The notes under the pieces were generated by a model that had not been told where the DNA came from, ran no database searches, and was given only the letters and a program-made list of their open reading frames with translations. The position numbers and the translations under genes are program-made. Below, piece after piece: positions 32,044 to 37,551 of a stretch of 64,000 nucleotides of DNA; within the stretch, counting starts at the first letter, position 1, and the number at the start of each line of letters is the position of its first letter. This stretch comes from Massilia sp. METH4. GTDB lineage: Bacteria; Pseudomonadota; Gammaproteobacteria; Burkholderiales; Burkholderiaceae_D. The stretch is from positions 1,922,001 to 1,986,000 of the forward strand of contig NZ_CP146614.1 of the NCBI RefSeq assembly GCF_037094685.1. Reading direction: 5' to 3'.

Positions 32044-32069
32044 GCTGTCGCCGAGCTGCACGGCAAAGC

Positions 32070-32120
32070 AGGGACAGGTATTCTTCCGGGTTGCGGCCCG
32101 GAAGGGGCCTGTCCCTTTTT
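32070..32120 (+). terminator. Strong terminator after phaB
   Basis: A nested stem of AGGGACAGG (32070-32078) with CCTGTCCCT (32108-32116), and CTTCCGGG (32083-32090) with CCCGGAAG (32097-32104), is followed by TTTTTCTTTT. Confidence 0.9.
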
Positions 32121-32163
32121 CTTTTGTTCCCGGCCCGATGTTCGGGGTCGATGTCTGGAGACG

Positions 32164-36165: not shown

Positions 36166-36269
36166 GATCTCAGCCTACGGTAACCGGCGGGGGAACACAA
36201 GCGCGCTCGCCGGCGTACCGTTAGCTGGCGCACGGAGCGGGCGGCACTGTCCAGCACGTGCCAAGGTGC

Positions 36270-37520
36270 CTGACCCCGTGACACGGGCTGATGCATGCTA
36301 ACGGCCGAGCCCGTCTCAAGGTGCCTCGTATGATGATCCCGTCGGATCTTTGGCAAAATTACCGCTGAAGGAAACGGCCAGGCAGAGTGATGTCGATGGT
36401 GTCTAAGGCCAAGAGCCTGTGGGTCAGATTGGCGCCTCTGCCTGTTTTTCATTGTTAAGTCCGGACGGTATCTTAGGCTTCGAGCCTGCATACGAGGGTG
36501 GTCAACAAATGAATTTCGTAGGCACGCCAGTAGTAGGAATTGATGTCAGCAAAAGCAAACTGGATATAGCGTTGCTGAAGAATGGGAAGCTCAAGAGCAA
36601 AGTGCTTCCGAACAACAGGGACGGTTACGCAGAGCTGATAAAGTGGTTGAAGAATCAGGATGTTACGCTCGATGCGGTCCATATTTGCATGGAATCGACA
36701 GGCGTGTACAGCGAGCCTGTTGCCCTGGCATTGAGCGACATGGGCATGAAGGTCAGCGTCGTCAATCCTGCCAGCATCAAAGGATTTGGCCAGAGTCTAA
36801 TCATCCGAAACAAAAACGACAAAGCTGATGCAGCTCTCATTGCGCGATACTGCGCAGCGATGAGCCCAGCGCTTTGGCAGGCCCCTTCGCACGAGCAGCG
36901 GCAATTGAGGGCTTGGAACGAGCATCTGGCATCGTTGAAAGACATTCGACAGCAACAGGCCAATCGTATCGAAGCACTTGAGTTTGCAAACCAGACCGAG
37001 GTGGCAGCTCACGCCAAGACGCACTTGGATTGGCTGGACAAACAAATCAAGCAGCTGGAGAACGATATCGATGATCACATCGATCGGCATCCGGATCTCC
37101 GGCACGATGCTGAGCTGATTGAGTCGATCCCAGGCCTTGGCCGCGGGACCGCGGCCAAGGTACTTGGTCGTGTGGGGAACCTGCGGCGCTTCGGCAGCGC
37201 CAAGGAACTGGCGGCCTACATTGGGGTGACGCCACGCCAGAGGCAATCAGGCAGCTCGGTGAGGGGTAGGACTACCATTACCAGAATGGGCTGTCGCGAC
37301 CTGCGGGCAGCCCTATACATGCCAGCACTTACAGCGATCAGAAAGAACCCGCTGTTAAGGGAATTTGCAAACCGGCTGCAGTCAACAGGCATGGCTAAGA
37401 TGGCTGTCATCGCTGCCGTCATGCGCAAGCTCGTGCACCAGATGTACGGCGTCGTCCGCTCAGGAAAGCCATTTGACCCGAATCACATGGGCAAAAGGCT
37501 TGCGGGTGAACACGGTATCT
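36270..37520 (+). mobile_element. IS110-family insertion sequence
   Basis: About 1.25 kb, clearly lower in GC than the flanks, with one transposase gene, a 237-bp 5' non-coding end and almost no 3' non-coding sequence. There are no terminal inverted repeats. A near-identical 20-bp sequence (CTGACCCC then G or A, TGACACGGGCT) occurs at both ends, 36270-36289 and 37519-37538, so the exact crossover is ambiguous from this copy alone. The guide pairing of the predicted bridge RNA favours the CT at 36270-36271 and 37519-37520 as core dinucleotide. IS110 elements are DEDD transposases that insert at short specific sequences. Confidence 0.8.
36330..36510 (+). ncRNA. Predicted bridge RNA of the IS110 element
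   Basis: Folded by eye. A 5' hairpin GATCC-CGTC-GGATC (36335-36348). A target-binding loop closed by CAGGCAGAG (36379-36387) with CTCTGCCTG (36436-36444), with inner hairpin AGGC/GCCT (36406-36418). Its 5' side has GGTGTCT (36398-36404), matching target GGTGCCT with one G-U wobble, and its 3' side has GGGTCAG (36421-36427), complementary to target CTGACCC. A donor-binding loop closed by TTGTT/AACAA (36452-36456, 36504-36508), with inner hairpin AGGCT-TCG-AGCCT. Its 5' side ACGGTATCT (36465-36473) is identical to the right end 37512-37520, and GGTCA (36500-36504) is complementary to the left end. Ends of the RNA are approximate. Confidence 0.65.
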
Positions 37521-37522
37521 GA
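36509..37522 (+). CDS. IS110-family transposase
   Basis: A 337-residue RNA-guided recombinase. The RuvC-like DEDD domain shows Asp12 (VVGIDVSKSKLD), Glu62 (HICMESTGVYSE) and Asp104/Asp107 (NKNDKADAALIARY). A coiled-coil region (residues about 150-210) and a C-terminal transposase_20 domain with IPGLGRGTAAK, YIGVTPRQRQSGSS and the conserved Ser/Gly stretch follow. ATG 36509 has GAGGGTGG upstream and directly follows the predicted bridge RNA. Under the preferred boundaries, the stop codon TGA is formed by the T of the core plus GA from the target. The gene looks intact. Confidence 0.93.
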   Translation: MNFVGTPVVGIDVSKSKLDIALLKNGKLKSKVLPNNRDGYAELIKWLKNQDVTLDAVHICMESTGVYSEPVALALSDMGMKVSVVNPASIKGFGQSLIIRNKNDKADAALIARYCAAMSPALWQAPSHEQRQLRAWNEHLASLKDIRQQQANRIEALEFANQTEVAAHAKTHLDWLDKQIKQLENDIDDHIDRHPDLRHDAELIESIPGLGRGTAAKVLGRVGNLRRFGSAKELAAYIGVTPRQRQSGSSVRGRTTITRMGCRDLRAALYMPALTAIRKNPLLREFANRLQSTGMAKMAVIAAVMRKLVHQMYGVVRSGKPFDPNHMGKRLAGEHGI

Positions 37523-37551
37523 CCCCATGACACGGGCTCGGCCATGGCGGG

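Follow-up and report, generated by a model that had tools for sequence, protein, structure and literature searches.

An intact IS621-type IS110 element in Massilia sp. METH4 with a predicted bridge RNA that fits its REP-like target sites

Introduction

The genome of Massilia sp. METH4 holds a recombinase gene preceded by a long non-coding leader, which raises the question of whether this leader specifies an RNA that can be read against the DNA the element has entered and, if so, where the element begins and which of its bases act as guides. The window considered here is the whole 64,000-nucleotide stretch of DNA that was analysed. The element is an intact IS110-group insertion sequence of the IS621 type, spanning 36327-37520, and we regard it as highly probable that it has multiplied recently and that its bridge RNA guides a circular form into REP-like hairpins at a CT dinucleotide. 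It is new as an individual, IS621 already providing the known mechanism.

Copies and ends of the element

Eight full copies, 99-100% identical, are present in the single 6.88-Mb contig of this genome (G000), seven of 1194 bp and one of 1191 bp; a 3-base deletion lies inside the recombinase gene of copy L006. Comparison of their flanks showed identical ends in all eight and set the left junction, GGTGCCT/CGTATG, at 36326/36327 and the right junction, ACGGTATCT/GACCCC, at 37520/37521. The main parts are as follows.

36327-37520, + strand: IS110-group element of 1194 bp, including the right-end CT core (eight copies compared)
36509-37522, + strand: recombinase gene, 337 aa (PF01548, PF02371, NF033542, PDB 8wt6)
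36325-36332, + strand: core and right donor (RD), CTCGTATG; CTCGTAT or TTCGTAT is conserved in relatives
37512-37520, + strand: left donor (LD), which is the right end ACGGTATCT, with the CT core at 37519-37520

The original prediction had put the left end near 36270, but the eight genomic copies share sequence only from 36327, and the non-coding leader shrinks from the proposed 237 bp to 182 bp once this end is corrected. These 182 bp precede the ATG and no non-coding end follows the gene, which is the IS110 arrangement. In the IS1111 group the long non-coding end lies downstream of the gene. The assignment to IS110 made at the outset stands: the protein carries both Pfam domains, scores above the cut-off of NF033542 (the NCBIfam model of IS110 RNA-guided transposases) and has IS621 as its best solved homologue (PDB 8wt6, E 4.4e-76), followed by ISCro4 (PDB 9t56, E 1.7e-73). 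Residues D12, E62, D104, D107 and S247 align with the catalytic set of IS621, whose numbering was inferred with a +2 chain offset, and the recombinase combines the DEDD RuvC-like and Tnp domains that distinguish the IS110 group.

It is unlikely that the copies are relics that have lost their mobility. No transposition was seen here and L006 lacks three bases of its gene, but the near-identity of the copies argues against decay, as do the open frame without internal stop and the invariant set of guides found in all eight.

Bridge RNA and guides

The proposal of a bridge RNA upstream of the recombinase gene is supported. Covariance model R1 recovers eight bridge-RNA copies in G000 and gives the one in the window 133 bits, this copy being among the sequences used to build the model. 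Its predicted parts are the following.

36375-36504, + strand: bridge RNA core with the target- and donor-binding loops
36398-36404, + strand: left target guide (LTG), GGTGTCT
36421-36427, + strand: right target guide (RTG), GGGTCAG
36428-36429, + strand: putative handshake guide AU of the target loop, placed by analogy with IS621
36465-36473, + strand: left donor guide (LDG), ACGGTATCT, identical to the right end
36489-36496, + strand: right donor guide (RDG), CATACGAG, as corrected here, complement of CTCGTATG at 36325-36332
36497-36498, + strand: putative handshake guide GG of the donor loop, its first base compared with the target base that precedes the core

The two loops carry all four guides, each overlapping the core, as is characteristic of IS110 bridge RNAs. 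Three of them had been placed correctly, namely the LTG, the RTG and the LDG, the last being indeed identical to 37512-37520. The fourth had to be revised, since with the left end at 36327 the proposed RDG, GGTCA at 36500-36504, would pair with DNA outside the element and the right donor guide becomes CATACGAG; the claim that all guides meet on one CT had therefore misplaced the exact junction, both the left boundary and the RDG being wrong. Of 2000 dinucleotide shuffles of the leader (182 nt), none contained the 9-base donor match, 4 contained CATACGAG and 43 GGGTCAG, so that the donor guides stand above chance, the 7-base RTG being weaker when taken by itself. The handshake base of the donor loop can pair, wobble included, with the pre-core target base in 34 of 41 copies (A:T 15, G:C 12, G:T 7, others 6, one unread), a raw count with no null model; handshake pairing of this kind is described for IS621 in the available text of PMC11208158.

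The fold proposed for the leader owes its support to the relatives, the single sequence being weakly significant (z -1.72, with 11 of 200 shuffles folding equally well or better). In an alignment of 15 relatives 96.7% of the 449 helix cells hold standard pairs and 13 of the 30 pairs show double changes. Covariation of the helices across homologues, as had been anticipated, was found (0.382 against 0.214 when shuffled, 0/500, with slid controls at or below 0.170), the structure so assessed having been derived from the same alignment. The measure of further pair types was not above the shuffles (372/500), and helix 4, in which guide is paired with guide, is invariant. The conserved two-hairpin fold of IS110 bridge RNAs is present in this alignment. 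At gathering scores Rfam matched only a tRNA in the whole window. A weak R1 match at 32066-32150 of the window (12 bits, E 0.072) is probably due to chance.

Joining of the ends in a circle would bring together two candidate promoter boxes.

36329-36334, + strand: -10 box TATGAT of a putative circle-only promoter
37500-37505, + strand: -35-like TTGCGG at the right end, at a spacing of 17 from the -10 box in the circle

The pattern TTGnnn-17-TATnnT occurs at the same place in all 19 distinct circle junctions with 8-10 of 12 consensus bases, and the best promoter match of the inserted form reaches 6-9, equalling the circle once (L054). From this consensus match we infer a promoter restored in the circle, as in other IS110 elements.

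Guide-target covariation among relatives

Recombinase matches were obtained in 10 of 74 genomes of the genus (E<=1e-60), 16 of 392 of the family (1e-90) and 8 of 399 of the order (1e-80), the METH4 genome being included in each count. Plasmids yielded no DNA relatives by blastn, and their protein relatives all fall below 60% identity. The resulting 48 loci comprise 36 with both junctions, from 16 genomes, 5 with the left only and 7 with the right only, four distant loci from a scan of contigs being left out; the 41 with a left junction represent 19 guide types. LTGs were read by alignment, except that those of L032, L033 and L034 were moved one base by reference to the apical stem, after which their left match is 9/9. 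An automatic stem rule misread L130, L131, L132 and L135 and was not applied to these four.

Across the 19 types the LTGs matched their own left targets at 5.11 of 7 non-core positions, against 2.89 after permutation (0/20,000), and with the core at 6.22 of 9 against 3.91 (0/20,000); the RTGs of 15 types matched at 6.96 of 7 against 6.61 (86/20,000), all of these being tests that overstate independence because guide types share descent. Changes in the RTG point the same way: an element of G003, 90% identical to the one in the window, differs in one RTG base (GTGTCAG in place of GGGTCAG) and both of its copies lie at CTGACAC, and in L030 (G024) the RTG GTGACAG faces CTGTCAC.

Four of the 19 types fit poorly. 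They are those of G186/G219 (3.0/9, with wobble counted half), L049 (4.5), L132/L134 (4.8) and L130, which scores 6.0 and is outranked by sites of other types. The G186/G219 guide is ATTAGACTG; nine of its ten copies lie at (A/C/T)T(C/T)GACTCT, most commonly TTCGACTCT, and nine of ten match the LTG only one base out of register (L047, L056, L057, L060, L061, L063, L064, L127 and L128), L048 being the sole copy that fits in register, and that partly. For these two genomes a trans-acting orphan bridge RNA was considered and rejected, because the number of RNAs detected by R1 (4 and 6) is the same as that of the recombinase matches. Unoccupied TCGACTCTGACCC sites lie near several G186/G219 copies, and an element of G355, with guide AACGACTCG, is inserted in register at the same sequence. 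L134, which was kept in the count, is probably a tandem, as its left flank resembles the right end of a further copy.

Target sites and REP-like repeats

The occupied target and its neighbour in the window read as follows.

36320-36326, + strand: left target (LT) GGTGCCT, ending in the CT core at 36325-36326 (junction of eight copies)
37519-37525, + strand: core and right target (RT) CTGACCC, the hairpin arm running on to about 37545
36253-36291, + strand: unoccupied neighbouring target repeat unit with GGTGCCTGACCCC at 36265-36277, matching other genomic repeats

Six of the eight copies sit at GGTGCCT/GACCCC within a REP-like hairpin. The predicted target GGTG(C/T)CTGACCC holds for these six, which match GGTGCCTGACCCC, and is missed by one base in the other two, in the left half by L007 (GGGGTCT/GACCCC, one LTG mismatch) and in the right half by L008 (GGTGTCT/GACACC, one RTG mismatch). 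Genome-wide, CGTGTCNNGGTGCCTGACCCCNNGACACG with up to three mismatches has 18 occurrences, one palindromic place being counted on both strands, and its reversed control none. Unoccupied GGTGYCTGACCCC was found at 7 places, all GGTGCCT, and unoccupied GGKGTCTGACMCC at 70, 37 of them GGGGTCTGACCCC and 33 GGTGTCTGACACC. Copies occupy 6 of 13 GGTGCCTGACCCC sites versus 2 of 72 one-mismatch sites (Fisher p 9.4e-5, for classes chosen after the sites were seen). Pairing of the handshake G 36497 with the pre-core C could explain why GGTGCCT is preferred over GGTGTCT despite the LTG being GGTGTCT.

The target repeats are probably the REPs of a RAYT. One of the four Y1-transposase genes of the genome has GGGGTCTGACCC hairpins on both flanks; two of the others have no GGGGTCTGACCC-type motif in the flanks fetched and one has a single motif. 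This RAYT-like gene is L137 (G000:C1:620058-620384), and copy L007 sits in its array. Elsewhere, three tandem 55-bp REP-like units, all exact GGTGCCTGACCCC and all unoccupied, lie at G000:C1:2460204-2460342 (L123).

An orthologous locus with the identical site still empty was not found in the 74 genus genomes. The search covered 30 loci, 29 of them from other genomes; these 29 were all compared with the rejoined flanks, and 10 of them were inspected by motif. L069 was rejected as such, since in spite of two similar palindromes it carries GGGGTTGACCCC and is a related empty site only. L069, L071, L072, L073 and L074 occupy the same intergenic spot in relatives, with one to several hairpins whose outer arms are similar and whose inner sequences differ.

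The palindromic nature of the targets invites a reading in which recognition depends on the shape of the REP hairpin or on contacts with the recombinase protein, and in which the RNA matches the DNA only incidentally. Once the flanks are rejoined, seven of the eight own sites fold (RNA parameters) into a hairpin whose apex coincides with the core or lies close to it, L008 being the one that does not, and the site flanks of several relatives look palindromic too. Nevertheless, target loops vary together with targets over 19 guide types, the sites of L008, L028 and L038 lack a strong hairpin with the core at its centre, and the 70 palindromic GGKGTCTGACMCC sites carry no copy; we consider recognition by shape very improbable. 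A start of the element at 36270, with GGTGCCTGACCCC at 36265 as the left junction, is refuted by the eight-copy comparison and has next to no probability left. In its favour, CTGACCCCRTGACACGGGCT occurs at 36270 and again at 37519, but this direct repeat, which misled the first reading, is the repeated target, 36270-36300 is replaced by different DNA in the seven other copies, and the GGTGCCTGACCCC-type repeat is dispersed in the genome with 7 unoccupied exact sites, 36265 included. The left target is consequently not 36265-36271 but 36320-36326; the unoccupied unit is intact and precedes the occupied one by 55 bp, a spacing like that of the three-unit array at G000:C1:2460212/2460267/2460322.

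The stop codon of the recombinase gene

The stop TGA at 37520-37522 consists of the core T and the GA of the target. A T/GA stop after residue 337 is present in 35 of 36 complete elements and in all 7 with the right end only (42/43), and in L030, whose RTG and target are devoid of TCA/TGA, the frame continues for 61 codons. Once the ends are joined in the circle, the same frame stays open for a further 24-29 codons, reaching into the bridge-RNA region, and translation from the circle would yield a different protein. Annotated stops are listed together with the gene in five plasmid relatives. The right end was located in two of these, IS621 and one from Leptolyngbya, and in both the gene stops before it.

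Tentatively, and with more doubt than confidence, it can be proposed that genes of this subfamily have no stop of their own and that an RTG ending in TCAG selects CTGA targets, upon which insertion completes TGA; guide choice would then be coupled to gene integrity, the circle protein would be altered and the RTG would be kept while the LTG drifts. Against a functional coupling count the shared descent of the elements, the conservation of the RTG beyond the stop triplet, the retention of TCAG in L032-L034, whose right end was not located, and the persistence of L030. Stop codons within the insertion site are described for ISLxc2 and ISLxx4 of the IS481 family in the available text of PMC2516522. 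For IS110 we found no report of a target-supplied stop in the literature searched, which was largely without subscription papers: in the text available, the words 'stop codon' do not occur in PMC11187229 or PMC11208160 and were counted 0 times for PMC11208158 and PMC12045711, and 'termination codon' in PMC11187229 is a figure landmark only.

Discussion

The copies, their ends, the guides, the guide-target covariation and the conserved catalytic residues are, as we read them from the sequence, what supports an IS621-type element that moves under RNA guidance. The circle, its transcript, the strand exchange and the handshake pairing are inferred by analogy with IS621. The element would be excised as a circle whose joined ends form a promoter, from which a bridge RNA of ~165 nt would be transcribed. 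Its target loop would pair with both strands of GGTG(C/T)CT/GACCC and its donor loop with ACGGTAT-CT-CGTATG, whereupon the DEDD/serine recombinase would swap strands at the CT and the circle would be inserted at the apex of REP-like hairpins.

With a recombinase 42.5% identical, IS621 of E. coli (IS110 group) resembles this element in its catalytic residues, leader position, two-loop bridge RNA, CT core and right end (ACAGTATCT in IS621, ACGGTATCT here), as well as in its REP targets and circle-junction promoter (PMC11208160, available text). The two differ in the target, which is ATCAGGCCTAC in IS621; unlike IS621, the present element has a 7-base RTG and a gene that reaches the right end and takes its stop from the target, whereas the IS621 gene stops ~100 bp short. 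ISPpu9, ISPpu10 and other REP inserters likewise enter REPs, as far as the available text of PMC1525189 and PMC8450116 describes them, although their REPs differ from these. In the seekRNA study the RNA target matches of ISEc11 and ISXne4 shifted together with the target (PMC11187229, available text); those elements belong to the IS1111 group and have the guide order reversed, whereas here one guide base goes with one target base. IS110 insertion into REPs (PMC1525189) and guide-target covariation with natural re-direction (PMC11208160, PMC11187229) are thus already published in the portions of these papers available.

The METH4 element serves as a small natural experiment on bridge-RNA targeting, in which identical copies and a readable RNA coincide, occupied and empty sites can be counted within one genome, and a close relative has one guide base changed along with the matching target base. 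If the coupling of guide choice to the stop codon were functional, it would limit the targets that such an element can adopt, which would matter for the reprogramming of this branch.
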